Below are positions 4,869 to 40,593 of a stretch of 64,000 bases of DNA, in pieces. A program made the translations under genes and the position numbers. Below the pieces are notes generated by a model. The model saw nothing but the letters and a program-made list of their open reading frames with translations. It searched no databases and was not told the origin of the DNA. Numbering within the stretch: position 1 is the stretch's first letter; each line of letters begins with the position of its first letter. The stretch is from Acidobacteriota bacterium (lineage in GTDB: Bacteria > Acidobacteriota > Terriglobia > Terriglobales > Acidobacteriaceae): NCBI GenBank assembly GCA_025359885.1, contig JANYDG010000024.1, positions 1 to 64,000 of the forward strand, written 5' to 3'.

Positions 4869-4885
4869 CGACGGGACTACCTTTT

Positions 4886-9866: not shown

Positions 9867-11453
9867 TCATGGTTTCAACGAAATAACCGTGACTGAACCG
9901 GGCGCAAGCTTCAGTTCCAGCCTGCCATCTTTTACGCTTGCAGATGCGGGCCGGGGCACCACCGCATTGGGTACTTCAAATGTATTGACGCTGTCAACGG
10001 CGGGCGCAGTCAGCATCTCGCCCTTGGCTGATTTGAGCATGATGCCGGTGATGTCGGCTTCAATTTCCACCGTCTTGCCGGGATCCAGATTTGTGATTTC
10101 GAGCCACAGGTTTCCCGACACATCTTTTGCAGCAACGGCATCCAACTGCGGCAGAAGAGTCGTGCCCTGCTTGTACGTACCTGCATCGAAAGCAACTGGG
10201 ACAAACGTTGCGTCCTGGAAGGGTAAGTACATTTTGAACAGGTAGTAGGTCGGAGTAAGGACCATTTTTTCCTTGTCCGTCAGGATCATCGCCTGCAGAA
10301 CGTTGATCATCTGGGCGATATTTGCCATGCGGACGCGGTCCGCGTGTCGCGCGAAGATGTTGAGGTTCAGCGATGCAAGAATCGCGTCTCTGAGGCTGTT
10401 CTGCTGCACTAGAAAACTAGGATTGGAGCCGGGCAGTGGTGCATGCCACGCACCCCATTCGTCCACGACGAGCGCGATCTTTTTCTGAGGGTCATATTGA
10501 TCCATAACGGTCTCCTGCTTACGCAGGAACTCCTCCATGAAGAGAGTGGCCTTCAGCGATTTGCTGTAATCCTCCAGGCCGAAGCCGGTTGAGGACGTCG
10601 AAGGCGGCCAACCATTGGGCACTGTATACCAATGCACAGAAAGGCCGTCGATATTCCAGCTCCAGCTGTGATGCTGCCACGCTTTCATGATCGTCTCGGT
10701 CCATTCCGTTGTTGGAGTCCCTGGGCCTACGGCGATCTTCAGCATTTGGTTTGTGGATTTCTGGGAGGGATTGTCATTCTCTACAAAACGGCTGTAGATC
10801 TTGAGTTGGCTCAGGTAGAACTCTGCGGACATGTTGCCGCCGCAGTCCCAACTTTCATTGCCGATGCCGAGAAAACCGACCGTGTACGGAGCTGGATGGC
10901 CGTTGGCTGTGCGTTCCTTCTCGAGTTCAGTGGGAGCGGCCGCCGTCATATATTCCATCCATTCGGCAGCTTCCTGTGGCGAACCAGAGCCGACATTGGC
11001 GGATACGTAGGCCTGGCTGCCGATCTGCTGAATGAAGTCCATGAATTCGTCGGTTCCAAAAGCGTTCGTGTCGACCACACCACCCCATGCGGAGTTCAGA
11101 GTTGCCGGTCGCTGCGCGGCTGGGCCAATGCCTTTCCGCCAGTGGTACTGGTCGGCGAAGCATCCTCCCGGCCAGCGGACATTGGGAACCTTCAGGGCTT
11201 GAAGCGCGGAAACGACGTCCTTGCGGATCCCGCGGATGTTTGGAATGGGCGAGTCGGGCCCGACCCATATGCCTTCGTAGAGTCCGTGCCCTAGATTCTC
11301 AGCGAATTGGCCGAAAAGATTGCGGTCAATCTTCGCGCCCGGTTTCGACGCGTCGATGGTCAGATGAACGGGCTTTTGCGCCATCAGCGGAGGGACCGAC
11401 ACCGATAGCAGAACGGAGACGGTAAAGAACAAGCGAATGTGGCCTAGACTCAT
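9867..11453 (-). CDS. secreted alpha-L-arabinofuranosidase, GH51
   Basis: A glycoside hydrolase of 528 residues that would remove terminal alpha-L-arabinofuranose from arabinans, arabinoxylans or arabinosylated glycoproteins. It has a signal peptide ending near PPLMAQ, so it is exported. The GH51 catalytic residues are clear: acid/base Glu200 in GIGNESWDCGG and nucleophile Glu332 in VVDEWGAWH. The early GRIxxNLFGxFxE-like segment is DRNLFGQFAENLG, and VRWPGGCFADQYHW follows. I start it at ATG 11453 because GGGAG lies six bases upstream and the signal peptide follows directly; the frame opens earlier at 11498. A near-perfect palindrome lies about 160 bases upstream. It is the gene upstream of the hydroxyproline operon on the same strand. 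Confidence 0.9.
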   Translation of the reverse strand: MSLGHIRLFFTVSVLLSVSVPPLMAQKPVHLTIDASKPGAKIDRNLFGQFAENLGHGLYEGIWVGPDSPIPNIRGIRKDVVSALQALKVPNVRWPGGCFADQYHWRKGIGPAAQRPATLNSAWGGVVDTNAFGTDEFMDFIQQIGSQAYVSANVGSGSPQEAAEWMEYMTAAAPTELEKERTANGHPAPYTVGFLGIGNESWDCGGNMSAEFYLSQLKIYSRFVENDNPSQKSTNQMLKIAVGPGTPTTEWTETIMKAWQHHSWSWNIDGLSVHWYTVPNGWPPSTSSTGFGLEDYSKSLKATLFMEEFLRKQETVMDQYDPQKKIALVVDEWGAWHAPLPGSNPSFLVQQNSLRDAILASLNLNIFARHADRVRMANIAQMINVLQAMILTDKEKMVLTPTYYLFKMYLPFQDATFVPVAFDAGTYKQGTTLLPQLDAVAAKDVSGNLWLEITNLDPGKTVEIEADITGIMLKSAKGEMLTAPAVDSVNTFEVPNAVVPRPASASVKDGRLELKLAPGSVTVISLKP

Positions 11454-11613
11454 GTGCACTCCCAGAAAAAGAGCCGGGTATCGTGATCGAAAAATCATCG
11501 TAGCCTCGAATTGCGAGGACAGGATATTGAGATCTTCGATTTGCGAAATCGACCTCTGAACCCCGGACTATACAGAACGATTCCGCTTGCCTGCAAGTCA
11601 AATCACAATTCCG

Positions 11614-12143: not shown

Positions 12144-13352
12144 TCATGCGGTGAGCAGCCTCACCAGGTCTGCAAGATTCAATTCAGAATTGGAGACGGT
12201 GCCCCTGGGCATGCTTGGTCCAATCGCAACTGCCTGCCCATGACCTTCGAACCAGACCAGGAACGAAGATTGATCTGCGCCCGGCAAGCGCTGCTGATTG
12301 AGCCACTGGTAGTATGAGCCCATATCGGCATCAACCAGGGAACCGAGGGGATCAATTTCCGGGTTAGGGTGGGAGTTGGCAAGGAGTTCGTTCATGGGCC
12401 GCGGGCGTTGCCGGGGAGCGAAGCGCACTAGCAAGGTAAGGGCCTGAGCACGACGCAGGACTTCGCGGGCCGTCCATTGGGCAAAAGTAGTGCTGAAGAT
12501 TTGTGTCCCAGACCCCTCAGTGAAGAGCCTGACCTGAAAGCGGCTGAGAACGGCGTCCTGCGATTTGTCAGCTCCGAGTTCAGACGGCGACAACCTGGCA
12601 AGATTCGTGCGCAATTCTTCTGGACCCATGCCAGGGCGCTGAATTTCTGAATTCATGTATTTAAGAATGCTGGCCCGCACCGGCTCCAGCGCTTTGTACG
12701 AAACGGATGTGAGAGTGGCACTGTGGTCGGCGGACTGACCGCCGTCAACATACCAGTGGGCGTAGGGGATTGGGTGATCGTTGGCTCGGGCTGCGATTGC
12801 AGCCAGCAAATGCCCAAGGCCATTTTCGGGGTTGACTTTACTGAAGTATGTGCCGTGCTGCCGCAGGTAACGGAACAGCAGCTGATCATACGAATCGACG
12901 CCCTGGCCAATCACAGCGATCCCGAGGCGCTTGGCCGGGAGCGCCTGAGGAGGTGCTGCAATCTGTAAACGGTCACCATACTCCGTGGCCGCCTTGCGAA
13001 AGGTATCCAACTGATGAGTGGACCAAAGATAGGCTGCCTGCTGTTCGACGAATTGAGCGGGCAGGTTGATCCAATCAAAGCTTTCCAGCCTGGCATTGAG
13101 AGACAGCCTGGAAAATTCCTGGAACCATTCTTTGGTTTGAGCCGGTGTGAGAGAGCTTAAATTTGCTAGCTCCCTATCCGCAGAGGTGCGTTCAGCCGGA
13201 AACTTGAAATCGTAGTCAATGATCTGACGAAGCAAGCTTGGCAGGAAACTGAGTGGCAATCGCTGCATTGCAACAAGGTGGGCAGAGACGAGACTTTTTG
13301 CCTCGGGAGGATAGGCCGCGAAGAGTTCGATTTTGAGATCAATTGGGAGCAT
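12144..13352 (-). CDS. protein of unknown function, partner of the DUF1501-like gene
   Basis: A 402-residue protein I do not recognise. It has no clear signal peptide or membrane segment. Notable segments are LGIAVIGQGVDSYDQLLFRYLRQHG in outline (a possible nucleotide or loop region), AHWYVDGGQSADH and, near the end, SSFLVWFEGHGQAVAIGPSMPRG. It starts five bases after the stop of the Tat-exported phosphatase-fold protein, so the two are almost certainly co-transcribed and probably work together. The C-terminal part is transcribed close to the MITE-like element. Function unknown. Confidence 0.75.
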   Translation of the reverse strand: MLPIDLKIELFAAYPPEAKSLVSAHLVAMQRLPLSFLPSLLRQIIDYDFKFPAERTSADRELANLSSLTPAQTKEWFQEFSRLSLNARLESFDWINLPAQFVEQQAAYLWSTHQLDTFRKAATEYGDRLQIAAPPQALPAKRLGIAVIGQGVDSYDQLLFRYLRQHGTYFSKVNPENGLGHLLAAIAARANDHPIPYAHWYVDGGQSADHSATLTSVSYKALEPVRASILKYMNSEIQRPGMGPEELRTNLARLSPSELGADKSQDAVLSRFQVRLFTEGSGTQIFSTTFAQWTAREVLRRAQALTLLVRFAPRQRPRPMNELLANSHPNPEIDPLGSLVDADMGSYYQWLNQQRLPGADQSSFLVWFEGHGQAVAIGPSMPRGTVSNSELNLADLVRLLTA

Positions 13353-13357
13353 AAGGT

Positions 13358-14566
13358 TTACAACAACTCACGAATCAGCGAGCCTTGGGAGATTCCAGTT
13401 GAGAATCCCATCATGGCCCCGAGGCTGGGGACAAGGTCAATGGATTGCACTGGGCGGTCGTAAACGACACCCTGGCGGACGCCAGCACCCATCGCCATCA
13501 TCCAGGTGGTACGGGCAGCCGGGTCGCCGGTGCGGTGGTGCTGGAAGCCGTTGCCACCGGCATCCTCATCAGCATCGCGGCCAAAGTCGGGAAGGATGAA
13601 AAGAGTCGTATTGCCTGCATATTCAGGTTCACTCTGCACTGCACTCCAGAGTTCGGCGCACAAACGGTCGGTCCGTCGAATTGCATCCACGTAGAGGGAG
13701 TAAGTACCGGAGTGAGCGATGTCGATATCGTGCATCGTTATCCACAGCAAACTTGGAGATTCTTGCTTCATTAAACGCTTTGCAATGAACATTGACAGCT
13801 CATCTGGGCTGGAGACAGTGCGGGCGTGGGCCATGAAATCGTCCACGGAAAGCTTCAGGATCATTTCCAGTTGTTGTAGCTCAAATTCGCCGCCGCCAAT
13901 TTGTGGGGTATAGAGAGGCGTTTCGTAATTGTCGCGGAGCAAGTGGTCAAAATCAGTTGCAGGTCCGGATTTAGCTGCGTTCAGTAGATGCTTGGGCAAA
14001 ACGACACGCGCCCCCAGGCCGGGTCCGTAGTTGCGAACATTGCTCTCACCAATGCGGTTGAAGCCGTTGCTCGGGGCTACAACCCAGGCGTCAGAAGGAG
14101 GACGTTTGAGATCCTTACGGAAGTACTCAAAGACAGTCGGATGCTCGGGCGGAATCGCCGAAAAGTTATTGAGGGTTTCGTAGACGCCCGTGGCTAGACT
14201 GGCTGTTGCTACGTAGTGTCCGAGAATTCCCTGATTGGTAACCTGGGTGAAAAAGCTCGATTGTGGGATGAGCTCTTTCATCATGAAGGGTATATTTTCC
14301 TGACCTTCAGGAGCAAATGTCTCCTGGTCGCGAGCCCCACCGCCAAAGGTGATGACGATCGTTTTTCTCTTTTTGGCCGCGGCTTCACCATGAAGCAGAG
14401 GGCTGGCACCCAACAGAGACGTTCCCAGTGCAACCCCCGCCGCATCGCGGAGAAAATCGCGTCTACTTCGTCCGAGTCTATTGGCGATTTCATGAGCGTG
14501 CGAAGCCCATGTTGCAGACTGGGCTACGGTGAGATCTTTACGGAGTGACGAATATGAATAAGTCAA
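13358..14566 (-). CDS. Tat-exported alkaline-phosphatase-fold protein (DUF1501-like)
   Basis: A 402-residue protein with a twin-arginine signal (SRRDFLRDAAG, residues 34-44, followed by a hydrophobic stretch), so it is probably folded before export. The mature part has features of the sulfatase/alkaline-phosphatase superfamily as found in DUF1501 proteins: TIVITFGGGARDQETF near the start, TLFILPDFGRD and GFQHHRTGDPAARTTWMM near the end, with metal-ligand type Asp and His. The start is probably TTG 14566; GAGG lies about nine bases upstream and no ATG precedes the Tat motif. It is the first gene of a two-gene unit with the 402-residue unknown protein. Substrate unknown. Confidence 0.7.
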   Translation of the reverse strand: MTYSYSSLRKDLTVAQSATWASHAHEIANRLGRSRRDFLRDAAGVALGTSLLGASPLLHGEAAAKKRKTIVITFGGGARDQETFAPEGQENIPFMMKELIPQSSFFTQVTNQGILGHYVATASLATGVYETLNNFSAIPPEHPTVFEYFRKDLKRPPSDAWVVAPSNGFNRIGESNVRNYGPGLGARVVLPKHLLNAAKSGPATDFDHLLRDNYETPLYTPQIGGGEFELQQLEMILKLSVDDFMAHARTVSSPDELSMFIAKRLMKQESPSLLWITMHDIDIAHSGTYSLYVDAIRRTDRLCAELWSAVQSEPEYAGNTTLFILPDFGRDADEDAGGNGFQHHRTGDPAARTTWMMAMGAGVRQGVVYDRPVQSIDLVPSLGAMMGFSTGISQGSLIRELL

Positions 14567-14671: not shown

Positions 14672-16090
14672 TTATGGTTTCGCTGTTGACGTCGACCTTG
14701 CTGCGTAAACAAACTGCTGGACATCAGCTTTCTCTTTGTCGATTTGAGCCAAGTGCTCGGCGCGCAGCCTTTGGTATACGTCGAATTCACTTTGCGCCTG
14801 CTCTTTCTGGCCAAGGTGCACGTAATCCTGACCGAGGCGATAATGGGCGTCGGGGAGGTTTGGATTCAATTCAAGCGCCCGCTTATATTCAGGTAGCGAT
14901 TTGGCGAACAGCCGCTGATCAGCATAGAGGTTTCCCAGCTCCACGTGTGGCTCAGCAATTGTGCCATCCAGTTCGATCGCCCGTTGGAGCAGTGACTCCA
15001 CCGTATGTAGATCGAGCCCAGCTTCCTGACCGCGCTTTCCCTTCCACAAACTCATGGCGTAATAATACTGTGCCAGGGCGGAATCGGGCTTGAGCGCAGC
15101 ATAGCGATGAAAGCGCTGAATTACGTCTTCAGCCTGAGTGGGAGAGCTATCGAAGGCCTTTGAGAGATAGAGGTAGCAGCGGGGATCTGACGGGTCGAGA
15201 TCGGCGGCAGCAAGCAATGCTTTGACGGCTTCATCATACTTGCCGAGCAGATCCAGAGCCATACCGAAGCCGGTCATAAGCCGGGGTGACGTTGGATAGC
15301 GCCTGGTAGCCTCTTTGAAGATGTCAATTGCTGGCTCGTAGGTGCGATGGAGCATGAGTTCGCTGCCCCAGTCAAAGAGATTGTCTTCGCTGGGGTCGAG
15401 GTGGGCTGCGACTTCGAATTCATTGGCGGCTGCGACATATTTGCCGTCCTTCTCATCGATCTGGCCAAGCAGGTTGTGCAGTTCTCCTGTGTTTTTTTGC
15501 TGCAGCATGCTTTGAACGACGGTTCGAGCCTGGGAAAGGAGCCCGGCGAGGAAGTCAGCAAGGGCGAGGTCGTAACCGTTGTCGTAAGAGGAGGGCTGAA
15601 GGAGTTGTGCCTTTTCGAGAAGAGGCAAAGCGTCTTTGATCTTTCCAGATTGAATATAGAACTCGCCAAGATTGTGGTTGGCGTCGTATTCCTGAGGAGC
15701 GAGGGAGAGAGCCTTGCGGAAATGTTCAGCGGCAAGTTCGGCTTTGCCAGCATGGACAAGACTTGCGGCAAGGTTGGTATGCGCTGCGGCTGAATCAGGT
15801 TTGAGGCGAACGGCGATTTCCAACTGTGGGAGCGCCTTGGCGTCCTGCGACTGGGACGCGTAGCAGATGCCTAGCAGTTCGTGAATCTCGAAGGTGGTCT
15901 TTGCGTAGGGAAGTAGTGTCTCCAGTTGGGCTGCTGCCTCTGCAAAGTGGCCAGCATCGTAGGAGGCTACGGCAGACTGAAACTGGCGGTCGAGCTTCTG
16001 TTCCTGGGGATCTTGACTGAACGATGGTGACGCAGAGAACGCGAGTGGAAACAGTATCGAGAGTGTGTATAGAAAACGCCTGCCCACCAT
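14672..16090 (-). CDS. secreted TPR-repeat protein, partner of the TonB receptor
   Basis: A 472-residue protein with a signal peptide (RRFLYTLSILFPLAFSASPSFSQ) followed by a chain of about ten tetratricopeptide repeats, for example HTNLAASLVHAGKAELAAEH and AHYRLGQDYVHLGQKEQAQS. The start is ATG 16090, with GGAG a few bases upstream; the frame remains open to 16180. It lies 113 bases after the stop of the TonB receptor on the same strand, with a strong hairpin in between. A central block starting DWGSELMLHR is shared with the TPR protein at 20515-22317 on the other side of the receptor, so the two are paralogues. Probably a periplasmic scaffold or partner for the receptor's cargo (inference). 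Confidence 0.82.
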   Translation of the reverse strand: MVGRRFLYTLSILFPLAFSASPSFSQDPQEQKLDRQFQSAVASYDAGHFAEAAAQLETLLPYAKTTFEIHELLGICYASQSQDAKALPQLEIAVRLKPDSAAAHTNLAASLVHAGKAELAAEHFRKALSLAPQEYDANHNLGEFYIQSGKIKDALPLLEKAQLLQPSSYDNGYDLALADFLAGLLSQARTVVQSMLQQKNTGELHNLLGQIDEKDGKYVAAANEFEVAAHLDPSEDNLFDWGSELMLHRTYEPAIDIFKEATRRYPTSPRLMTGFGMALDLLGKYDEAVKALLAAADLDPSDPRCYLYLSKAFDSSPTQAEDVIQRFHRYAALKPDSALAQYYYAMSLWKGKRGQEAGLDLHTVESLLQRAIELDGTIAEPHVELGNLYADQRLFAKSLPEYKRALELNPNLPDAHYRLGQDYVHLGQKEQAQSEFDVYQRLRAEHLAQIDKEKADVQQFVYAARSTSTAKP

Positions 16091-16137
16091 CATTCTCCAT
16101 TGTTGCCGCGTGAGCAAACTGCTACGCAGAAACACCT

Positions 16138-16168
16138 TGGCAAGGCAGCCAACGGGCCTGCCTTGCCA
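16138..16168 (-). terminator. strong hairpin between the TonB receptor and TPR genes
   Basis: Perfect 11-base arms (TGGCAAGGCAG at 16138-16148 and its complement at 16158-16168) enclose a nine-base loop. There is no T-run after it in the direction of transcription. It could reduce read-through into the TPR gene, or protect the 3' end of the receptor message so that receptor and partner are made in different amounts. Confidence 0.6.
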
Positions 16169-16202
16169 GGGTGGTTTCATCTTACCTCAGTCTTACAGCG
16201 GC

Positions 16203-19200
16203 TTAGTAGTACAGCTTCAGAGCGAACTGAATCTGCCGGGGATCGTTTGGATTATCCCTGGTGGATCCAACTTCGCCGAAGTGAGGATCGGTGATGTTGC
16301 CCGATCCGCCGATAGCTACTACGCCGTTGCCGCCGAAGTTCGGCGAATTGAAGTTTGCATGGTTGAGAACGTTGAAGAACTCAGAGCGGAACTCAACATT
16401 GAACCGCTCGTTGATCTTGAAGTTCTTGAACATCGAGAAGTCCAGTTTGTGGAATCCGGGTCCTGCAACCTGACCAGGCTTGCTGCCGAGAGCTGCTGCG
16501 CCGGTAACCGGGATGCAACCCTTGGGAGAGTCGATGATCGGCACTGGTGCATCGGGAGTTCCACCCAACTGGCAAGGCTGATTGAAGGCTGCAGCATTGT
16601 TGATCCAGAAAGGATGCTTCCCACCGTCGATGGTCTTGATCTTGATACCCAAGCCTGGGCTCTGTCCCTTGACCAGGACTGTATTGCAGCTGGTTCCTGA
16701 GGTTGTTCCCGAGGGGCAACCGAAATTGAGTGGCTGACCGCCCTGGAGCGTAGCGATCCAGTTCACAGCCCATCCGCCGAGAATTGCATCGGAGATGCCA
16801 CCGTGATTGAGGAATCGCTTGTCCTTGCCAATCGGAAGTTGATAACCGCCGCTGATGTGGACGACCTGACGAATGTCAAAGTTCGCGAGAGCCATGTCAA
16901 ACTTCGGCCCAAGTCCCGGAACTCCGTAGGCGCGCAACCCGCCGGTGGTGCCACCGTTGAGCAAATCGCCTGCATCCGACAGTGTCTTGGAGAAGGTGTA
17001 GGTTACGAGGTAGGTGAGGCCATTTGAGAACTGCTGTTCAAGCTTGGTCTGCAGTCCGTGATAGTGGCTTTCTCCGTACGTAGCCTGGTAGCTGCCGCCG
17101 CCGAAATCGGGGAACGGGGTGTAGGGATTGGTGCTGATGCCGGAAGGAAGAATCTTCGCGACGTTCTTGTAGCCTACGCCGCCTTGCAGATTCGCGCCCT
17201 TGGTGTAGACGTACCCTGCCTGGAGAGACATGGTGCGGGTGAGCGAGTACTGCATGGTCAGGTTGGCACTGTAGGTGCGAGGTGTGCTGTAGTCGAACTG
17301 GAGTCCCTGCAGTCCGAGTCCCTTGGCGTTCAATGCACCTGGCGTGAGCGGGATGCAGGAGAAGCCAGACTCAAACGATGCAGTGCCACCAGGGCCGGCT
17401 GTCGGGCAGGTTGCGTACGGTGAGTTGTACTGAATCGGCGCGACTTGACCGCTGATGCCAGACGGAGCGTTCGGGAAGTACGACAGGTTGAAGACGAAGG
17501 GATAGTTTTCACCGATGTTTGGTCCGTATCCCTGATTCTCGAAGGAGTTGTAGAAGAGGCCAAAGCCGCCGCGTGTGACGAGCTTCGGAGTGACCTGATA
17601 GGCAAAGCCGACACGAGGAGCGAAGTTCGCCTTCTGTGTCCGCAACAGGCCCTTGCCATACTTGTCGGTCTGGAGCAGGGTGATACCGTCCTGTGCCAGC
17701 AAGTCAACGAAGCCGCTGCAATTGATGCCGGAGCAGGTTGAGTTTGTGGAAAGGGTGCGGTTGTCCTTGCCGTGCGCAGGGATGATGAACTCAGGCTTGC
17801 CGTCTGGTGCGCCGCCGGGAACAAAGTTCGCCTGGCCACCGTTTGACTCGCCGATAGGTCCAAAGTAGTCCCAACGCAGTCCGAGGTTGATTGTCAACTT
17901 AGGATTGACCTTGAAGTCATCCTGAAGGTAGGTGGCAAAGTAGGTGCGCTCGTCGTAGGTTTTGTTGATGTTCGAGGCAAACACACCGTCCGAACCGCCG
18001 GAATAGCTGAAGCCGTTGGGGTTAGGATTGTCGCCAATGCTTGTGGGAGCAGCAGTTGGAGGCAGGAGGAACTGCGCAAGGCCGCCACCGGTCGAACTCT
18101 GGTTCGGAATGTCGGTAAAGCCGCCGCCGTAGTTGAACTGACCGCGTGACCAGCCGGGCTGCAGGGTCGAGAACTTGACATGCTGGTATTCGACGCCAGC
18201 CTTGAAGCTGTGCTTACCGTAGATCTTGGTGAAGTCATCGGTGAGCTGCAGAGTCTGGCTGATTTCGTCCGAAGGCAGGAAGCTGTTGCTGCCCAGTGTC
18301 GCGAGGTTACCGATACCGAAGGCTGGCAGACCGCCGTTTTCGTTGCCCTGTGGGATGCCAGAAATACCGTACTGCTCAGGAACACCCGAGACATTACCGT
18401 CCGGCCCGAAACGGGTGGTGTGAAGGTGGGCAAAGCCAGCGCGCGCCTGGTTGACTGTGCTGGGATTGAAGGTGAGGGTATAGCCGGCAACCATCTGGGA
18501 TGATTTCGCGGTCTGGAGACCCTGGTTGAAGCTGCCACCGTCTGCAACGCCGCCGAAGATGCCCGGAATGAAGATCGGGTCATCAGCATAGCTGAAACGG
18601 AAGAAGATCTGGTTTTTGTCGTTGGGATTGAAATCTTCACGCGTATCGAACGTGTTCGAGTGCTCGTAGAGACCTGGGCTCACCGCATAGGTCTGCGTCC
18701 CGGAGTTCGGAGCGGGAAACAGACCCAATAGTTTGATTGCATTTTGATCAAGGCGGATCGCAGGAAGCTGGTTGAGATCGGAGCAAGCTGCAAGTGTGAA
18801 TGTGGTCTTTTCTGGTCCACACTTGTTGCTGAACGGATCACGTACGTACCCATCTGCACTGGTTGAGTTGGTCAAACCAGAGACAGGGTCCTGGGCTCCG
18901 GCAGCAACCAGTCGGCTTGTGGCTGGATCGAGGATTGTGCCCTTCTGGATATTACGACCGAGGATGTCGGTTCTCGTCGTTCCGTCATTGAGTGCGAGAA
19001 TATCGGTCAGGTTGGTGAAGTTGCTGCTCCGTTCCAATGCTGTAGGAACGTTGCCGTTTTCAGAGGAGCCCTGAACGCGACGCTTGCCTTCGTAATCGCC
19101 GAAGAAAAAGAGCCGGTTCTTGAGGATTGGGCCGCCGCCGGAAGCGCCAAACTGATTCAGGCGAAGTTTGCCTTTTTTGACACCGTTGTTGTCTTCGAAC

Positions 19201-20045
19201 CAATCAGCTGCATCCAGCTTATCGTTTCGGAAAAACTCCCAAACGGTGCCGTGGATGCTGTTGGTACCCGACTTGATGGTTGCGTTGAGAACCGCGCCAG
19301 CGGAACGACCCAACTGAGCGCTGAAGTCGCCGGTCTGCACCTTGAATTCGGAGATCGCGTCCACGGGAGGCAGAATGACGAAGTTGGTGCCGTTCAGGAA
19401 GTCGACTGCGTTCGAGTTGTTGTCGATACCGTCGAGCAGGTAGTTGTTCTGCGAGGGGCGGAGGCCGTTTGCAGAGAACGCACCGGAGGCTGCGTTACCG
19501 CGAGTATCTGCCTGGGGTGTATTGACACCTGCGCCGAGCTGCGCGAGGAAGGTGAAATTACGGCCGTTGAGCGGAAGTGCGTTGACGGACTGTTCGGTGA
19601 CGGTTTGTCCCAGAGAGGCGTCTTCGGTCTGCAGTTGTGGAGGAGCGTCAGTGACTTCGACCGTTTCAGTCGCGGCACCGGGCTTGAGCTGCACATTGAC
19701 CTGCAAATTCTGCGAGACGGCGACAGTAAGATTGGTCTGGGTCGTCTTGGAGAAGCCGGTTGCGGTCACAGAGATTACGTAGTGGCCGGTTCTGACGGGA
19801 GAGAACGAGTATCCGCCGCTGGCGCTGGAGTTTGTCTCCAACGAGATGCCTTGGTCGGTGTTGAGGAGAGTGACGTGGGCCTTGGGTACAACTGCACCCG
19901 AGGTATCCAGCACGGTACCTGTAATGGATCCTTCATCGACCTGGCCAAATGCGGACTGGCTTTGAACCAGAACGAGGCAAATGCCGACGAGGGTTAAGTA
20001 GCCGATCGATCTAAACCAGCTGACGAATTTGCGTTCAAGGCTCAT
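16203..20045 (-). CDS. TonB-dependent receptor, Oar-like, with N-terminal carboxypeptidase-regulatory-like domain
   Basis: An outer-membrane receptor of 1280 residues. After a signal peptide (ending near QSAFGQ) comes a CarboxypepD_reg-like beta-sandwich (about residues 40-125: GSITGTVLDTSGAVVPKAHV), then a plug (about 130-250, with NALPLNGRNFTFLAQLGAG and LDGIDNNSNAVDFLNG) and a very long beta-barrel ending in an aromatic residue (ALKLYY). ATG 20045 was chosen because GGAGG lies eight bases upstream, inside the open frame that starts at 20066. Such receptors are greatly expanded in Terriglobia; cargo may be glycans, peptides or secreted proteins. The receptor is flanked by paralogous TPR genes, one downstream and one divergent. 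Confidence 0.92.
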   Translation of the reverse strand: MSLERKFVSWFRSIGYLTLVGICLVLVQSQSAFGQVDEGSITGTVLDTSGAVVPKAHVTLLNTDQGISLETNSSASGGYSFSPVRTGHYVISVTATGFSKTTQTNLTVAVSQNLQVNVQLKPGAATETVEVTDAPPQLQTEDASLGQTVTEQSVNALPLNGRNFTFLAQLGAGVNTPQADTRGNAASGAFSANGLRPSQNNYLLDGIDNNSNAVDFLNGTNFVILPPVDAISEFKVQTGDFSAQLGRSAGAVLNATIKSGTNSIHGTVWEFFRNDKLDAADWFEDNNGVKKGKLRLNQFGASGGGPILKNRLFFFGDYEGKRRVQGSSENGNVPTALERSSNFTNLTDILALNDGTTRTDILGRNIQKGTILDPATSRLVAAGAQDPVSGLTNSTSADGYVRDPFSNKCGPEKTTFTLAACSDLNQLPAIRLDQNAIKLLGLFPAPNSGTQTYAVSPGLYEHSNTFDTREDFNPNDKNQIFFRFSYADDPIFIPGIFGGVADGGSFNQGLQTAKSSQMVAGYTLTFNPSTVNQARAGFAHLHTTRFGPDGNVSGVPEQYGISGIPQGNENGGLPAFGIGNLATLGSNSFLPSDEISQTLQLTDDFTKIYGKHSFKAGVEYQHVKFSTLQPGWSRGQFNYGGGFTDIPNQSSTGGGLAQFLLPPTAAPTSIGDNPNPNGFSYSGGSDGVFASNINKTYDERTYFATYLQDDFKVNPKLTINLGLRWDYFGPIGESNGGQANFVPGGAPDGKPEFIIPAHGKDNRTLSTNSTCSGINCSGFVDLLAQDGITLLQTDKYGKGLLRTQKANFAPRVGFAYQVTPKLVTRGGFGLFYNSFENQGYGPNIGENYPFVFNLSYFPNAPSGISGQVAPIQYNSPYATCPTAGPGGTASFESGFSCIPLTPGALNAKGLGLQGLQFDYSTPRTYSANLTMQYSLTRTMSLQAGYVYTKGANLQGGVGYKNVAKILPSGISTNPYTPFPDFGGGSYQATYGESHYHGLQTKLEQQFSNGLTYLVTYTFSKTLSDAGDLLNGGTTGGLRAYGVPGLGPKFDMALANFDIRQVVHISGGYQLPIGKDKRFLNHGGISDAILGGWAVNWIATLQGGQPLNFGCPSGTTSGTSCNTVLVKGQSPGLGIKIKTIDGGKHPFWINNAAAFNQPCQLGGTPDAPVPIIDSPKGCIPVTGAAALGSKPGQVAGPGFHKLDFSMFKNFKINERFNVEFRSEFFNVLNHANFNSPNFGGNGVVAIGGSGNITDPHFGEVGSTRDNPNDPRQIQFALKLYY

Positions 20046-20514
20046 CCGAAAAACCTCCACTTTCATAATTCATGGACCGTATACCATGCTCCGGGGATCG
20101 AAACCGGCAACGACGACGGGATGTCGTAAACGCTTACATCCAGTCGCGAGCAAAACTAATACAGCGGAACAACCTTTGTCAACCGATAGTTGGAGATTAT
20201 CGGAGTTCCCTGAAAAGTGGGCATTTTGGCACAGCAAATCGTGGAGATCCGTGAAGGAAGGGGGGTATAGTTCCCAAGAAACTTTCGCTGCTTTGAGTTG
20301 AGAGTGTCGGCTGGATTGGACTCTCGTGCGCCTTATTCGCAAAAGCGGTAAGCATCGAAATGATTGTGCGGAACTGATGTCAGTGCCAGCGAAACCAGAG
20401 GCGGTAGTACAATCGGGTTTTCCTTCCAGGCAGACGAAAGCCGTTCCACTGGCTGACCTGCATGCTGAGGGCGGTTCCTGGGGTAAGGCTCCAAAGTGGG
20501 ATATTGAGGTCGTG
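20046..20514. other. divergent control region between TonB receptor and second TPR gene
   Basis: This stretch separates two divergent genes and holds the receptor promoter candidate. The plus-strand TPR frame is already open from 20326, but the sequence before 20515 encodes no recognisable signal or domain, so I treat it as leader. Confidence 0.5.
20156..20182 (-). promoter_or_regulatory. candidate promoter of the TonB receptor
   Basis: On the minus strand TTGACA (20182-20177) is followed after 15 bases by TATTAG (20161-20156), about 110 bases upstream of the receptor start. The -35 match is perfect, the -10 match is four of six and the spacing is short, so this is only a candidate. Confidence 0.4.
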
Positions 20515-22317
20515 ATGCCTGGTTTTATGGGGAAGCTTTTTACAAGGATGCATCTCTTGCGACGTTTTGTGGCGCTGACAGAGGGCACGGAGTCACGAAA
20601 CTCGAGACCTGGGCTTGGCTCGGTCAGTCTCTTCGGCCTGGCTACGGTCGCGTCGGCTCTCTTCACAATGGCCGTGGCTTCCGGAGTGGCTGAGGCACAG
20701 CTCTCCGCTCCGCTGCAGGCGGGACAGGCGCCAGTTGCAGGCCTGAATATTCGTGGAACGGTAGCGACCGTATCGGGCAGTCCACTTGCGGGTGCAGTTG
20801 TGAAACTGGAAAATGGGGGGGGTCGCGAGCGAATGGGAGCTTCTGAAGCGGTTGAAACGAAATCGGATGCGGCGGGAAATTTTGCATTTACTGGATTGCA
20901 TGCGGGTATCTACGTTATCCACGCGGAGGACCAGGCCCAGCGTAGCGCTTCGACGGCCGTGAAGATTTCGGGCGACGAGGTCATGACACCAGTCGTGTTG
21001 CGAATCGAGGTGCCCAAAGCACTTGCGGAATTGGGACCCAGGAATGCCTCGGATGCTTCTCACTCGGCAAATCAGGTGATGGAATTCGCCGATCAGCCAA
21101 ATTTTACGGTGGCAGGTGTGACCGATTGGACGGCGGTAGGTGGCCACGGATCGGATGCCATCCTGCGTACCAGCGAGACGCTGGCGCGTGACGCAGTGAC
21201 GCTCAAGGCTGCGAATTCACCGGCAAGTGCGACGAGCGCAGATAGCGCGGTCGAAGACCAACTGAAAGTGAAGCTTGCCAGCACGCCCGGGGATTTTGAA
21301 ACGAATCATCAATTGGGCGAACTTTATCTGCGCCTTGGCAGGTACGCCGAGTCGATTCCGTTCCTGGAGACTGCTTACAGGTCCGATCCGAGTGCATTTG
21401 GGAACGAGTATGACCTGGCCATGGCCCAGAAGGGTTTTGGCACGCCCAGGGAAGCTCTGGCGCATGTGAGAAGGTTGCTTACTTCCCATCCGAATGGGGA
21501 TGTACATCGCCTTGCGGGCGACCTTGAAGAGCAGATTGGGGATCCATTGGCGGCGGTACGCGAGTACGAGCAGGCGGTTCGTATGGATGCGAGCGAGCAG
21601 AACGAACTTGCGTGGGGATCGGAGTTGCTGTTGCATCGTGCGGTTTGGCAGGCGCAGGAGATATTCAAGCGGGGAACGAAGGAGTATCCGAAATCCGCTC
21701 GGATGCTGGCTGCTCTGGGCTCGGCGCTGTTTGCCGGCGCCCTTTACGATGAGGCAGCGACTCGGCTCTGCGAGGCATCGGATCTGAATCCATTGGATCC
21801 TTTGCCTTACGACTTCATGGGCAAGATTGAGTTGGCGGCACCGACGACTTTGCCTTGTATCGAGCAAAAGCTGGAGCGATTTGCCAAGGATAATCCAGAG
21901 AACTCGGCGGCCCAGTACCTGTATGCCATGGCAATCTGGAAGCGCCAGGCTCAGCCAGCGGACGCGCGTGACCTGGAGCAGGTCGAGTCGCTTTTAATCA
22001 GGGCCGTTCAGATGGATCGCCGATGCGGCGAGGGATTCCTGCAGCTGGGCGTGATTCGCACAGCTCAGCATAAACCGGACGAAGCAATCGGCTTTTTTCG
22101 CAAGGCGATTGAAGCAAATCCACAACTAGGCGAAGCGCACTACAGGCTGGGCGTGGCGTATGATCGCATGGGCGAATCGGCAAAGGCCAAGGAACAGTTT
22201 CAACTCCATGATGAGATTGAAAAGGCCGAGGCGGACGCCATTGAACAGCAAAGGCGCGAGGTCAAGCAATTTCTGGTTGTGCTGCAAGGTCAGAATGGTT
22301 CAGGGCAGGCTAATTGA
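20515..22317 (+). CDS. TPR protein with N-terminal carboxypeptidase-regulatory-like domain
   Basis: A 600-residue envelope protein. A hydrophobic signal or anchor segment (SVSLFGLATVASALFTMAVA) is followed by a CarboxypepD_reg-like domain (NIRGTVATVSGSPLAGAVV, about residues 60-140), the same fold that begins the neighbouring TonB receptor. The C-terminal half is a TPR solenoid that shares the WGSELLLHR...IFKRGTKEYPKSARML block with the TPR protein at 14672-16090. I start it at ATG 20515, where GAGG precedes by five bases; earlier starts at 20326 or 20377 remain possible. It is divergent from the receptor and 31 bases upstream of the HbpS-like gene, so the two plus-strand genes likely form an operon. 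Confidence 0.78.
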   Translation: MPGFMGKLFTRMHLLRRFVALTEGTESRNSRPGLGSVSLFGLATVASALFTMAVASGVAEAQLSAPLQAGQAPVAGLNIRGTVATVSGSPLAGAVVKLENGGGRERMGASEAVETKSDAAGNFAFTGLHAGIYVIHAEDQAQRSASTAVKISGDEVMTPVVLRIEVPKALAELGPRNASDASHSANQVMEFADQPNFTVAGVTDWTAVGGHGSDAILRTSETLARDAVTLKAANSPASATSADSAVEDQLKVKLASTPGDFETNHQLGELYLRLGRYAESIPFLETAYRSDPSAFGNEYDLAMAQKGFGTPREALAHVRRLLTSHPNGDVHRLAGDLEEQIGDPLAAVREYEQAVRMDASEQNELAWGSELLLHRAVWQAQEIFKRGTKEYPKSARMLAALGSALFAGALYDEAATRLCEASDLNPLDPLPYDFMGKIELAAPTTLPCIEQKLERFAKDNPENSAAQYLYAMAIWKRQAQPADARDLEQVESLLIRAVQMDRRCGEGFLQLGVIRTAQHKPDEAIGFFRKAIEANPQLGEAHYRLGVAYDRMGESAKAKEQFQLHDEIEKAEADAIEQQRREVKQFLVVLQGQNGSGQAN

Positions 22318-22348
22318 GGTTCAAGCAAATAATTTGAGGGGGAATGGA

Positions 22349-22819
22349 ATGGTGAAGGGATTCGTGGCAGTACTGGTGCTTGCTCTGACGATGCAGGCCC
22401 GGACGCAAGATTTGCCGAGCAAGCCGTATCTGGATCTCGCGGCAGTGAAGACGATGGTTGCGGCTTCGGAGGCGAAGGCCAAGGAGCTGAAGGTGAGCGT
22501 GTCGATCTGCGTGGTGGACGAGAGCGGCAACCTGATCTTTTTTGAACTGGGGCAGGGGTCTCCGCTGAACACAATTCAGTTCGCGCAGAAGAAGGCGCGC
22601 CATGCGGCTTTCTACGGTAGTCCCTCTAAGGATGGCCAGGATGCGGCGAAGAAGGGTGCTATCGAAGTCCTGGCGTTCCCTGAGTTCTTCCCCAACCAGG
22701 GCGGCGTGCCGATCAAGATCGGGGACCACATTCTCGGAGGCATCTCGGCGAGTGGAGCGAAGTCGGAGATTGACGAGCAGATTGCCCAGGCCGGCGCGGA
22801 CGCTCTGTTGAGAAAGTAG
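22349..22819 (+). CDS. exported HbpS/GlcG-family (DUF336) protein
   Basis: A 156-residue protein with a signal peptide (MVKGFVAVLVLALTMQART) and the GlcG/HbpS fold: VSVSICVVDESGNLIFFELG, then AQKKARHAAFYGSPS, and near the end GVPIKIGDHILGGISASGA. Family members bind haem or corrinoids, or are accessory to glycolate use. The start at 22349 has a strong GAGGGGG ribosome site; the frame is open earlier without one. It follows the TPR gene by 31 bases. Its stop lies inside a hairpin shared with the convergent CRTAC1 gene. Confidence 0.82.
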   Translation: MVKGFVAVLVLALTMQARTQDLPSKPYLDLAAVKTMVAASEAKAKELKVSVSICVVDESGNLIFFELGQGSPLNTIQFAQKKARHAAFYGSPSKDGQDAAKKGAIEVLAFPEFFPNQGGVPIKIGDHILGGISASGAKSEIDEQIAQAGADALLRK

Positions 22820-22829
22820 AGCGTCCGCG
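22795..22829. terminator. hairpin between convergent genes, spanning the HbpS-like stop codon
   Basis: Perfect 11-base arms, CGCGGACGCTC (22795-22805) and its complement (22819-22829), enclose a 13-base loop containing the last codons of the HbpS-like gene. The stop codon (22817-22819) ends on the first base of the right arm. The convergent CRTAC1 gene stops at 22833. There is no T-run, but the position suggests a two-way transcript end. Confidence 0.6.
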
Positions 22830-22832
22830 ACC

Positions 22833-24635
22833 CTATGCGGGCTTCGGCTTGTAGGTGTTGACGATGCCGTCGCCCTCGCGAATGGTGAGGATCTGGTTGG
22901 CCTTGACTTGCTTGAAGACTTCTGTCTTTTGCGTGGTCGGCCAGGTTACTTCGATAAGGTCGGCAGTTTCTGCTTTTCCCAAGCCAAAGTGCAAGCGCAG
23001 ATCTCCCTGAGACATGACACTGGTGCCGCTGTGGACTTCGTCCATCTGAACGTGTTTTCCCGTGGTCACCCTTGCGCGGGCACCAATGGCCGTGCGATTG
23101 GACTTTGTACCGACGAGTTTAAGTTTGATCCAGTTCTGCTTATTCCCGCCATCATTGCGTAAGAGCGAGGGTGGGTCGTTGAGATTGAGCACCAGGACGT
23201 CGATGTCGCCATCGTTGTCGTAGTCTCCAAAGGCTGCACCGCGGCTGGAGTATCGCTCACTGATCCCAGGCCCCATGTCGGCTGAAACGTCCTTGAAGTG
23301 TCCATTCCCCTGGTTCTTATAAACGAGCCTTGGATTCTTGTAAGTCTGCCCGAAGTTGTAGTTGTCGATCTCAGGGTAGACATGGCCGTTGATCTGGATG
23401 ATGTCTTGCCAACCATCATTGTCATAATCGACAAAGCCGCAACCCCAGGCGACATAGCGATTGTTGACGCCAACGCCCGTGGGAAATGTCAAGTCGCTGA
23501 AGGTACCATCACCGTTGTTGTGGTACAGGTTGCTGGTGTCGTCGGCAAAGTTTGTCTTGAAGATATCGAACCAGCCGTCGCAATCGTAGTCGGCCACGGC
23601 GACGCCCATGCCTGCCTGTTCATGGCCATTGTCACTGTAGGCGCAGCCAGCCATTACTGCAACATCTGTGAATGTACCGTCGTGATTGTTTTTGAACAGG
23701 ATGCTTGGTTCCGAATCGACGGCGACATAGATATCCGGCCATCCGTCATTATCGAAGTCGTAAGAAACGGCAGTAATCGAGTAACGGGGACCAGGCTTGA
23801 GAATGCCCGCCTTCTGAGACACGTCGGTGAATGTGCCGTCGCCGTTGTTGTGATAGAGAATGTTTGTGTCGCCGGGAAGCCCGCGAGGGCCACACATGGT
23901 GGGGACGCCCTTCCACTGGCAAAAATTGGTGTCGTCGGGTTTGGGAATATTGCCGGGGTCCAGCTTGATGTAGTTGCAGATGAAGAGGTCAAGGTGGCTA
24001 TCCCGGTCGTAATCGAGGAATGTGCATCCGGCACCCCAGCGGACTTGCTCCGAGAAGAGTCCCGCCTTCTGCGTCACATCAGTGAATGTACCGTTGCCGT
24101 TGTTATGAAACAGGATATTGTGTCCCCAGAAGCAACAGAAGAGGTCGTCCCAACCGTCATTGTCGTAGTCACCGACGCAAACTCCTGTCTGCCATCCGGT
24201 ACGCCCGAGGCCTGACTTTTCAGTAACGTCTGTAAATGTGCCGTCGCGATTGTTCTTGTAGAGATGCGAGGTGGGAGCCTTGCCTGCTGGCCATTGAGCG
24301 TCTAGCCGGTCGCCGTTGGTGAAGTAGATGTCTAGCCAACCATCGTTGTCGTAGTCAAAGAAGGCCAGGCCGCTCCCCTTCGCCTCGATGATCGAGCGCT
24401 TATGGTCAATACCACCCCAGACATTTGGGATAGTCAGACCGGCCTGCTGCGCCACGTCGACAAACTGCACGGATGACGCGGCCGTCGGCGCTGGCGGCAC
24501 AACTGTGTTCGAAAGCGCCGTCTGGAGCAGCGCTGGGTCGCGCCATTTCCAGAGCGGCGTGGCAAGCGCCTCGGTGAGCGAGCTGCCGAGCAGAAACAGG
24601 GAGGAGCCGAGAAAGCGACGACGAGGGACATTCAT
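22833..24635 (-). CDS. CRTAC1-family FG-GAP/VCBS protein with ASPIC/UnbV C-terminus (1)
   Basis: An exported protein of 600 residues with a twin-arginine-like start (PRRRFLGSSLFLLGSS). From about residue 55 to 470 it has repeated calcium-binding-type blades (FFDYDNDGWLDIYFTNGD and similar DYDNDGW units), each ending in a TFTDVTEKSGL-type linker, forming an FG-GAP/VCBS propeller. Residues about 500-590 make an ASPIC/UnbV domain (HSGTSVMSQGDLRLHFGLG). This architecture is called CRTAC1 in bacteria; the role is unknown, with extracellular binding usually assumed. It is the last of four same-strand genes and lies 86 bases after the next CRTAC1 gene. Confidence 0.9.
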   Translation of the reverse strand: MNVPRRRFLGSSLFLLGSSLTEALATPLWKWRDPALLQTALSNTVVPPAPTAASSVQFVDVAQQAGLTIPNVWGGIDHKRSIIEAKGSGLAFFDYDNDGWLDIYFTNGDRLDAQWPAGKAPTSHLYKNNRDGTFTDVTEKSGLGRTGWQTGVCVGDYDNDGWDDLFCCFWGHNILFHNNGNGTFTDVTQKAGLFSEQVRWGAGCTFLDYDRDSHLDLFICNYIKLDPGNIPKPDDTNFCQWKGVPTMCGPRGLPGDTNILYHNNGDGTFTDVSQKAGILKPGPRYSITAVSYDFDNDGWPDIYVAVDSEPSILFKNNHDGTFTDVAVMAGCAYSDNGHEQAGMGVAVADYDCDGWFDIFKTNFADDTSNLYHNNGDGTFSDLTFPTGVGVNNRYVAWGCGFVDYDNDGWQDIIQINGHVYPEIDNYNFGQTYKNPRLVYKNQGNGHFKDVSADMGPGISERYSSRGAAFGDYDNDGDIDVLVLNLNDPPSLLRNDGGNKQNWIKLKLVGTKSNRTAIGARARVTTGKHVQMDEVHSGTSVMSQGDLRLHFGLGKAETADLIEVTWPTTQKTEVFKQVKANQILTIREGDGIVNTYKPKPA

Positions 24636-24671
24636 AAGTTGGGACCATTATAGAGATTTGAATGCGCCTTG

Positions 24672-24695
24672 GCCGAGCAGGCTCGCCTGCACGGC
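24672..24695 (-). terminator. hairpin between the two CRTAC1 genes
   Basis: GCCG-A-GCAGG, loop CTCG, CCTGC-A-CGGC gives nine base pairs with one A/A mismatch. It follows the stop of the 24722-26464 gene on the minus strand. No T-run follows; it may be a weak terminator or a processing stem. Confidence 0.4.
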
Positions 24696-24721
24696 AAACT
24701 CGCGCCTGCTGAGAACTGATA

Positions 24722-26464
24722 TCACTTGCTAGGTACTCTTGGGAATGGACGTGGGATGATCCCTACGCCCTCTTTCACGGCGATGATCTGGTCCAGGGGC
24801 GGGTTGGTCAGTTTTTCGACCAGACCGCTCGGCCAGGTAATGATGAGCGAGTCGATCCTGGCGCGCTTTTCGAGCCCAAAATGAATGCGCGGATCACTGG
24901 CGGACATGTAGCTGGTGCCACCCATTGCCTGCGCCGTCTGAGTAAAACCCTCCGCGGTGAGCTTGAGCAGGGCACCGGTACCGTCCCGGTTAGATTTGGT
25001 GCCAATGAGTTGGACAGTAAGCCAGTGGTTCGCATTGCCGCCATCGTTGCGGAGCAACTCTGGCACTTCGTCGCGGCTGTTTACGGCGATATCGATGTCG
25101 CCGTCATTGTCAAAGTCGGCGGTGGCCAGACCGCGACCTGCGACCGGGCGGATGAAGTCAGGTCCCAGCGATTCAGAGACTTTCTCAAAATGTCCCTTGC
25201 CAACATTGCGATACATCAACATCGGCTCTTTATAGAAAATTTCGCTATGGAAGAGGTTGACGTTTTCGAGCATTGCGCCGTTTAACTGCAAGATGTCGGG
25301 CCAACCGTCGTTGTCGTAGTCAACGAACTTGGTGGCGATACCACTGAAAAGCATGGCCTTGTTGCCGATGCCTGAGGCGTAGGTGTCATCGACAAACGAG
25401 CCGTCGCCGTTGTTCAAATAAAGGCGGTTCAGTTCAAGATCCAGATGGGTGATGTAGACATCGAGTGAACCGTCGCCATCGACGTCGGCGGCGTCAATGC
25501 CCATTCCGGCCTCATAGCGGCCGTCTTCACTGGCGGCTAGACCTGAGACAAGCGACACATCCTTGAAGGTGCCGTCGTGGTTATTCAGGAAAAGGAAGTT
25601 GGGCCAGGTATCGTTGGCAATGGCGATGTCGGGCCAGCCGTCATTATCGAAATCGGCAAGGACGACGCCCATCCCTTTGGATTCTGGCAGGCCAACGCCA
25701 GACTTTTCGCTGACGTCTGTAAACGTGCCGTCGTGATTGTTGTGGTAGAGCTTGGTCTTTTGCCCTTTGTAGTTGCCGGGGTTGCAATAGGAGCGGTAGC
25801 CTGGCTTCTGTTCGCCGCAGAAGAGATTGGCCTTGGGCGTCCAGTCGATGTAGTTGGTGACGACGAGGTCAAGGTAGCCATCCTTGTCGTAGTCAAACCA
25901 GCCAGCGCTGGTAGACCATCCACCCTCGTCGGCGACGCCTGCCTTGGCGGTTACGTCGGTGAAAGTACCGTCATGATTGTTGTGGTAGAGGATTGCATGG
26001 CCGTATCCGGTGACATATAGATCAGGGTAGCCGTCATTATCAAAATCGCCTACCGCAACACCCTGGCCGTAGTGCCCTTCCCCGCCGACGCCAGCTTTGG
26101 CCGTCACATCGGTAAAAGTACCGTCGCCGTTGTTGTGATAGAGGGCAGAGCGCAGGGGCGCTGGCGGCTTGTAAACATCGGTGGCTGCAGTTTGGACAAA
26201 GTAGAGATCCATGAGTCCATCCTGATCGTAATCCAGCCAGGCAACGCCCGTTCCCATGGTTTCCAGATAGTACTTTTGATCGCTTTGGGTGCCATCCTGG
26301 AGGAATGTAATGCCCGCGGCCTTATGGATATCTGTAAAACGGACGGCGATGGGAGTCGCGGGTGGTTCAGCCTTGGCCGGCTTTTGCGCCATTGCTTTCC
26401 AATTGCAGCCAGCACCTGAAAGAAGCAGAAGCAGAAGAATTGGCTGGCAGACGGCCAAGTTCAT
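24722..26464 (-). CDS. CRTAC1-family lipoprotein, FG-GAP/VCBS plus ASPIC/UnbV (2)
   Basis: A 580-residue predicted lipoprotein: signal peptide with lipobox LSGAGC about 20 residues in. It has a VCBS/FG-GAP propeller (units such as WLDYDQDGLMDLYFVQ and VGDFDNDGYPDLYVTG) and a C-terminal ASPIC/UnbV domain (MGGTSYMSASDPRIHFGL). ATG 26464 places the lipoprotein signal at the N-terminus; ATG 26485, two bases after the stop of the upstream TPR gene, is an alternative. The near-contact with the TPR gene shows co-transcription. It is likely anchored in a membrane as a surface or periplasmic binding protein, with unknown ligand. Confidence 0.88.
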   Translation of the reverse strand: MNLAVCQPILLLLLLSGAGCNWKAMAQKPAKAEPPATPIAVRFTDIHKAAGITFLQDGTQSDQKYYLETMGTGVAWLDYDQDGLMDLYFVQTAATDVYKPPAPLRSALYHNNGDGTFTDVTAKAGVGGEGHYGQGVAVGDFDNDGYPDLYVTGYGHAILYHNNHDGTFTDVTAKAGVADEGGWSTSAGWFDYDKDGYLDLVVTNYIDWTPKANLFCGEQKPGYRSYCNPGNYKGQKTKLYHNNHDGTFTDVSEKSGVGLPESKGMGVVLADFDNDGWPDIAIANDTWPNFLFLNNHDGTFKDVSLVSGLAASEDGRYEAGMGIDAADVDGDGSLDVYITHLDLELNRLYLNNGDGSFVDDTYASGIGNKAMLFSGIATKFVDYDNDGWPDILQLNGAMLENVNLFHSEIFYKEPMLMYRNVGKGHFEKVSESLGPDFIRPVAGRGLATADFDNDGDIDIAVNSRDEVPELLRNDGGNANHWLTVQLIGTKSNRDGTGALLKLTAEGFTQTAQAMGGTSYMSASDPRIHFGLEKRARIDSLIITWPSGLVEKLTNPPLDQIIAVKEGVGIIPRPFPRVPSK

Positions 26465-26487
26465 GCGAGCACGAAGCAGCGACATGG

Positions 26488-29019: not shown

Positions 29020-29094
29020 GATGGACCTACCATGGAGTTGTCTTTTGGCGCGGATCATCATTCCTTGAAACAAATCGAAGTGCCCTCAAGGCGC

Positions 29095-40541: not shown

Positions 40542-40593
40542 GCTCTTCTCCTGCATAGGCCGCCCCTTGGAGGGCTGGCGTGACCGCATTCGC

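Follow-up and report, generated by a model that had tools for sequence, protein, structure and literature searches.

In the SusC/SusD-type uptake loci of Bacteroidota the gene order is susC-susD, a TonB receptor followed by a helical protein of the tetratricopeptide repeat (TPR) type, near carbohydrate genes. A similar succession lies in the 64,000-nucleotide stretch analysed here (the window; positions 1 to 64,000 of contig JANYDG010000024.1, from the Acidobacteriaceae assembly GCA_025359885.1), where the gene of an Oar-like TonB-dependent receptor, P0003, is followed by that of a TPR protein, TPR_A, and a second TPR protein, TPR_B, is encoded divergently from the receptor. Unlike SusD, TPR_A shows no lipoprotein signal by eye, resembles canonical TPR superhelices and is absent beside some receptor orthologs. 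TPR_B in turn invites comparison with PG1058, which we take to be PorE and which has WD40 and OmpA parts that are not among the Pfam hits of TPR_B. The words tetratricopeptide and carboxypeptidase regulatory, which name the two parts of TPR_B, occur in the report on PG1058, a protein of the type IX secretion system (PMC5053529). Oar/PopC of Myxococcus xanthus offers the same receptor architecture, with a CarboxypepD_reg N-terminus, plug and barrel, but a word search of the main text of PMC6434023 turned up neither 'TPR' nor 'tetratricopeptide' nor 'operon', and the present analysis identified no protease cargo. TonB-dependent carbohydrate utilisation (CUT) loci, for example those of Verrucomicrobia, likewise hold receptors in carbohydrate-use gene clusters, but the order receptor, TPR_A, DUF1501-like protein, P0005 and the FG-GAP/ASPIC gene group met below are not described in the available text of that report (PMC5615132). 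Among the papers listed in the literature searches, no title or abstract start was about this gene group.

We read this locus, tentatively, as a conserved acidobacterial receptor operon (receptor, TPR_A, DUF1501-like protein and P0005) that adjoins another conserved group of genes (CRTAC_TPR, TPR_C, CRTAC2, CRTAC1 and TPR_B), with TPR_A as a periplasmic scaffold and a common accessory of the receptor. The genome holds about 29 Oar-like receptor genes, P0003 among them, and no described partner was found in the literature searched. A receptor subfamily with recurrent gene company is a testable entry point to the periplasmic protein such receptors use, their cargo, and the role of the DUF1501-like protein and P0005. 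The names TPR_A, TPR_B, TPR_C, CRTAC1, CRTAC2 and CRTAC_TPR are short labels coined in this analysis, in which G and L numbers denote genomes and loci.

The receptor operon and its TPR companion

The genes of the operon, and the divergent TPR gene, are the following:

16203-20066, minus strand: Oar-like TonB-dependent receptor (P0003), with CarboxypepD_reg, plug and OMP_b-brl_4 barrel (Pfam PF25183, PF13620, PF07715)
14672-16180, minus strand, start probably the ATG at 16090 (codon 31): TPR_A (P0001), a TPR superhelix directly downstream of the receptor
13358-14566, minus strand: DUF1501-like protein (P0004), with a Tat-type N-terminus and weak profile matches to the alkaline-phosphatase superfamily
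12144-13352, minus strand: P0005, with no Pfam family, immediately after the DUF1501-like gene
20326-22317, plus strand, ATG at 20515 (codon 64): TPR_B (P0002), with a CarboxypepD_reg domain, a conserved linker and a TPR superhelix

An earlier reading made from the sequence only had placed the two TPR genes at 14672-16090 and 20515-22317, one downstream of the receptor and the other divergent from it, and both the positions with their starts and the geometry hold in the window. So does its assignment of a CarboxypepD_reg domain to the receptor and to the divergent TPR copy (Pfam E 3e-19 and 8e-10, respectively). All receptor scores lie above cut-off (PF13620 69.7, PF07715 24.6 and PF25183 640.6 bits); a search of solved structures with P0003 found nothing at E 0.01.

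The alignment of TPR_A with TPR_B spans 369 amino acids at 35% identity (226 bits), and since the next TPR gene of the whole genome reaches 39 bits against TPR_A, their likeness goes far beyond common TPR character; judged by alignment, the two are true paralogues. Common to both are WGSELMLHR in TPR_A and WGSELLLHR in TPR_B, IFKEATRRYPTSPRLM and IFKRGTKEYPKSARML, YDEA in each, and DLDPSDP and DLNPLDP. The WGSEL, YDEA and DLDP/DLNP motifs that the sequence-only reading had listed as a shared block are thus present in both proteins, while its 'S.RM' reads S.RL in TPR_A. A 16-member family profile, run against the open reading frames (ORFs) in the window and in 28 receptor regions, gave the pair 549 and 505 bits; TPR_C came next at 173 bits, spread over several pieces of which the best scored 85, and the remaining TPR proteins stayed at or below 124 bits. 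Similarity beyond generic TPR, the WGSEL-LHR repeat and a C-terminal Q-F motif, the traits by which the WGSEL family was tested, were all found in TPR_A and TPR_B. At least 28 of 297 genomes of the phylum have a TPR_A-family match at E 1e-20, a lower bound set by scoring five first-look candidates per genome. A scan for WGSEL-like patterns in one genome per species returned 154 stretches, of which 143 encode relatives; the 77 loci kept were the best ones to TPR_A, so that TPR_A orthologs are over-represented among the 57 TPR_A, 18 TPR_B and 2 unassigned loci (in these two the ORF caller took another frame). By record title the 77 loci come from Acidobacteriota, except for two bins, Nitrospirae (L176) and Rhodanobacteraceae (L135). 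Terriglobus roseus DSM 18391 and an Edaphobacter lichenicola strain are culturable relatives that carry the locus.

Members of the family lie beside receptors more often than chance would have it. Where at least 1.5 kb of upstream sequence was at hand, a same-strand receptor ends within 1 kb upstream in 50 of 52 TPR_A-clade loci, the exceptions being L161, whose receptor is 2.6 kb away, and L156, where no receptor was found; both unassigned loci also have a receptor (2/2). Among 31 distant family members (at most 48% identity), 15 have a receptor no more than 1 kb away, whatever its orientation; chance would give about 5%, a figure derived only from the window's genome, with its 29 receptors in 4.2 Mb (P about 2e-12 on the assumption of independence). 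This test took in 39 of 47 family matches, 31 of them distant, and recognised nearby receptors with 24 reference receptors; G023:C60 had no upstream sequence, and the matches of the 47 that are not among the 39 were the two window genes, an end fragment on G023 C17, G163 at 2721873, G188:C438, G086 at 34573, G172 and G242:C549. These adjacencies bear out TPR_A as a frequent receptor companion, and with it one half of the pair for which a 'dedicated TPR partner class' had been proposed; for TPR_B the proposal is not supported, since it is directly downstream of a receptor in 0 of 15 loci.

Taken from the receptor's side, the association is looser. A receptor search of 31 genomes of the family gave 28 matches (21 candidates scored per genome), and TPR_A stands behind 9 of the 11 receptor orthologs with at least 59% identity, in G023 split over two contigs. 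The DUF1501-like gene and P0005 are retained by all 11, in one case with a contig break in between. TPR_A is therefore not obligatory for receptor orthologs, whose steadier companion is the DUF1501-like/P0005 pair, not TPR_A. At 36-48% identity, a family member adjoins 3 of 17 receptors (G171, G130 and G147).

Several observations weigh against TPR_A as a receptor accessory. The receptor orthologs of G225 and G281 are without TPR_A and lead straight to the DUF1501-like gene and P0005, and 14 of the 17 receptors at 36-48% identity have no TPR_A-family gene next door; with 2 of 11 close orthologs also lacking one, 'dedicated' is too strong a word. In G112 (G112:C42:32557-34005, L049) TPR_A carries an in-frame TAG stop, the called ORF is 322 amino acids long, and the gene is possibly decaying. 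The 31 distant matches are not independent: TPR_B orthologs account for nine, and some of the genomes nearly duplicate one another (G094/G163, G241/G281). Of 31 other TPR genes in the window's genome, 4 likewise stand right behind a receptor, where about 0.8% would be expected (P 1e-4; the TPR list, with 150 of 251 candidates scored, is possibly incomplete, and the gene number of 3,700 is an estimate). TPR genes in general thus favour that place, and the WGSEL family more so, which makes the adjacency of TPR_A partly a general TPR theme; in orthologs it is also partly inherited gene order. Finally, receptor and TPR_A distances show no special co-variation.

Two side observations concern the same genes. 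The TPR_A match of G103 holds one TAA, with an ORF of 474 amino acids remaining; and behind the receptors L083, L088, L089 and L093 of the window's genome there is directly a TPR gene that matches the WGSEL family only as generic repeats.

The distance correlations, computed on 21 loci and the window, were 0.677 between receptor and TPR_A, 0.676 between receptor and DUF1501-like protein, and 0.673 between receptor and CRTAC_TPR (partial r 0.21). Co-evolution of receptor and TPR_A beyond common descent is thus not seen, and the suggestion that the parts look co-evolved is not supported, since the receptor tracks TPR_A no more closely than it does its other neighbours. Such figures bear on a rival account, in which the genes lie side by side through inheritance of their order, the proteins are not physical partners, and TPR_A serves the DUF1501-like/P0005 pair or another step. 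TPR_A distances do correlate better with those of P0005 (r 0.83) and CRTAC_TPR (0.81) than with those of the receptor (0.68), and receptor orthologs without TPR_A keep the pair; however, some receptor-TPR units, such as L061 and L064, show no such pair in a 20 kb view, and distant family members still adjoin receptors. We regard this account as rather unlikely, though as the likeliest of the rivals. It is also conceivable that TPR_A serves the assembly or quality control of receptors of this class and has no role in transport itself: it is inherited with the receptor, and periplasmic TPR proteins are common in envelope assembly. Its absence beside 14 receptors at 32-39% blastp identity and beside two orthologs makes such a function improbable in our view. 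These readings and the SusD-like and export readings below overlap in part, and their likelihoods need not sum to one.

A candidate groove in the TPR proteins

A periplasmic scaffold remains the most likely role for TPR_A, and the predicted structure is consistent with it. In the AlphaFold2 model (pLDDT 90.6), 12 helix pairs make up one continuous superhelix; the top structural match is the TPR domain of OGT (Z 28.4, root-mean-square deviation (rmsd) 6.5, 386 residues aligned), and the other top matches are canonical TPR superhelices as well. In an alignment of 47 TPR_A with 11 TPR_B sequences, the positions conserved at 90% or above are most concentrated in repeat 7, in its helix A (E, N, F, W, S, E, L, L, H); further ones are found in repeat 10 (A, Y, Y, A, W, K), in repeat 12 (A, H, Y, R, L, G) and in the C-terminal Q-F. 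Because several of them differ from what we presume to be the TPR-consensus positions, they suggest a putative binding groove common to TPR_A and TPR_B.

In this reading TPR_A would be exported by way of its type I signal peptide, which was read by eye, and would act as a scaffold in the periplasm. A groove made by the conserved helix-A positions would hold a peptide or a partner domain, most simply the periplasmic end of the receptor or the Tat-exported DUF1501-like protein, and such binding could couple passage through the barrel to processing. In the FG-GAP/ASPIC group, TPR_B may rely on a groove of the same kind.

TPR_A might instead be the acidobacterial functional counterpart of SusD, capping or feeding the receptor from outside the cell. 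The receptor-then-TPR order resembles that of susC-susD, TPR_A is a TPR superhelix in its model, and an arabinofuranosidase and a sugar transporter are encoded nearby. Yet inspection by eye showed neither a lipoprotein cysteine nor a lipobox in the N-terminal part of TPR_A and its close orthologs, the best structural matches are canonical superhelices such as OGT, and some receptor orthologs manage without TPR_A; we hold this alternative to be unlikely. No SusD family appeared among the Pfam matches listed (25 of 26) or in the 50 structural rows listed for TPR_A, an absence that by itself excludes nothing.

TPR_B and the inverted FG-GAP/ASPIC block

The genes beyond TPR_B are these:

22349-22819, plus strand: HbpS-like gene after TPR_B (PF03928, E 6e-28), its start picked by eye within the ORF 22160-22819
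22833-24635, minus strand: CRTAC1, FG-GAP_3 and UnbV_ASPIC (Pfam)
24722-26485, minus strand: CRTAC2, FG-GAP_3 and UnbV_ASPIC (Pfam)
26488-29073, minus strand: TPR_C, a long TPR protein (Pfam)
29095-32967, minus strand: CRTAC_TPR, FG-GAP, UnbV_ASPIC, AhpC/TSA and TPR (Pfam)
20326-32967: block from TPR_B to CRTAC_TPR, about 12.6 kb, inverted relative to the receptor operon

TPR_B usually belongs with the FG-GAP/ASPIC genes and not with the receptor. Any receptor lies within 5 kb of it in 2 of 11 loci (those with 5 kb on both sides), whereas CRTAC1 is among the next two genes after it in 10 of 14. Even where TPR_B has been relocated behind P0005 (L114 and L120), CRTAC1 still adjoins it. The HbpS gene follows TPR_B in L169 and L173 too.

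Nine syntenic relatives (G217, G049, G094, G233, G112, G103, G163, G023 and G225) give the usual order: TPR_B on the plus strand, then on the minus strand CRTAC1, CRTAC2 and TPR_C (these two not always present) and CRTAC_TPR, followed by the receptor on the plus strand. After the receptor come TPR_A and then the DUF1501-like gene and P0005 in 8 of the 9, G225 being without TPR_A and the G023 locus continuing on a second contig. In all nine the gene divergent from the receptor is CRTAC_TPR, not TPR_B, which sits at the far end. TPR_B is divergent from the receptor in the window because the 12.6 kb block is inverted, so that it owes its place next to the receptor, apparently, to a flipped DNA segment; no inverted repeats of 16 bases or more joining the ends of the 20326-32967 block were found. 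The case shows how an inversion can create a misleading 'flanking pair'. Contig JABCZC010000007 (L109/L169) carries the same genes, HbpS included, in the usual order. Other orders occur: TPR_C or CRTAC_TPR is on the receptor's strand in L147, L149, L151, L152 and L163, and a second DUF1501-like/P0005 pair stands between CRTAC_TPR and the receptor in L111 and L178.

Between its CarboxypepD and TPR parts, TPR_B has a linker (21079-21219; ..F.VAGVTDWTAVGGHGSD..LRTSE..) that is present in 12 of 26 genomes searched and is 43-84% conserved in 11 other genomes, with one match each. The CarboxypepD part itself had been taken as a sign that TPR_B and the receptor exchanged parts. Exchange is not supported, because three other receptors of the genome match this domain slightly better (28.9-32.0 bits) than P0003, which comes fourth at 28.1; the differences among receptors are small.

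The FG-GAP proteins next to the receptor have export-type N-termini, read by eye. One could therefore picture the receptor as an exporter of proteins, like Oar/PopC, with TPR_A as a periplasmic cargo adaptor, perhaps for these FG-GAP/ASPIC proteins. The receptor has the Oar domain architecture, and Oar is needed for PopC secretion in Myxococcus (PMC6434023). That architecture, however, makes up 28% of the receptors tallied in the same paper and so predicts little; no cargo signal was identified; and the 18 kb locus of G281 has the receptor but no called FG-GAP gene. We find export highly doubtful.

FG-GAP/ASPIC genes also lie within a few kilobases of four other receptors of the genome (L085, L088, L092 and L098).

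The DUF1501-like/P0005 pair and its surroundings

The conserved receptor operon with its P0005 family is, in our estimation, a more notable find than the TPR pair. In the 31 genomes, 23 of 24 P0005-like genes come after a DUF1501-like gene (the exception is in G195), and the copy on G155 C4 is broken. A pair without any receptor called in 19 kb occurs once (L201). The two form a nearly fixed gene pair that is itself mobile.

P0004 matches DUF1501 (PF07394) at E 0.004 and 16.8 bits, below the curated cut-off of 27, and sulfatase S1_8A at E 0.0094. When 31 members of its group were scanned, 11 matched DUF1501 and 12 TAT_signal, with E up to 0.1. On these profiles the DUF1501-like protein leans weakly to the alkaline-phosphatase superfamily.

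P0005 itself has no Pfam match in the window, and its 29 relatives (mean column identity 72%) gave scattered, implausibly named matches in at most 6 of 29 members. Residues 136-402 of its predicted model (pLDDT 84.5) match PafA (5tj3) with Z 13.9 and rmsd 3.5 over 213 aligned residues, and 339 chains reach Z of 8 or more. Foldseek gave a weaker result, with one match at E of 0.001 or below (best E 1.8e-4, template modelling (TM) score 0.36). An alkaline-phosphatase-like fold is thus predicted for this region. Members of the superfamily usually have D-H after a late core strand; where it would be expected in P0005, an invariant R314-Q315-R316 was seen by eye. A sequence relationship between the DUF1501-like protein and P0005 was not seen (hhalign probability 0.2%, with a shallow profile that makes for a weak test).

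The boldest reading is that receptor, TPR_A, DUF1501-like protein and P0005 are one acidobacterial envelope machine, in which TPR_A would dock the periplasmic side of the receptor to the enzyme and TPR_B would be a duplicated dock rewired to the FG-GAP/ASPIC proteins. P0005, by eye without the usual metal ligands and with no export signal of its own, would be carried out or regulated by its partner. We think it quite improbable that all of this holds together.

An arabinofuranosidase gene (9867-11498) and a sugar transporter gene lie near the receptor operon in the window, and sugar-enzyme and LacI-type genes recur, by eye, around other loci. The nearby sugar genes suggest that the operon serves the uptake of a glycan or glycopeptide.

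Further out, genes for an aldehyde dehydrogenase, a member of the dihydrodipicolinate synthase (DHDPS) family, two FAD-type oxidoreductases and a member of the proline racemase family stand in a row at 3243-9479 and resemble what we take to be 4-hydroxyproline catabolism. Together with the arabinofuranosidase, this cluster possibly points to use of plant hydroxyproline-rich glycoproteins. At 37227-40589 a protein of 1120 amino acids combines DUF7948, SBBP propeller repeats and a chitobiase C-terminal domain, and it is followed at 40594-46659 by an ORF of 2021 amino acids.

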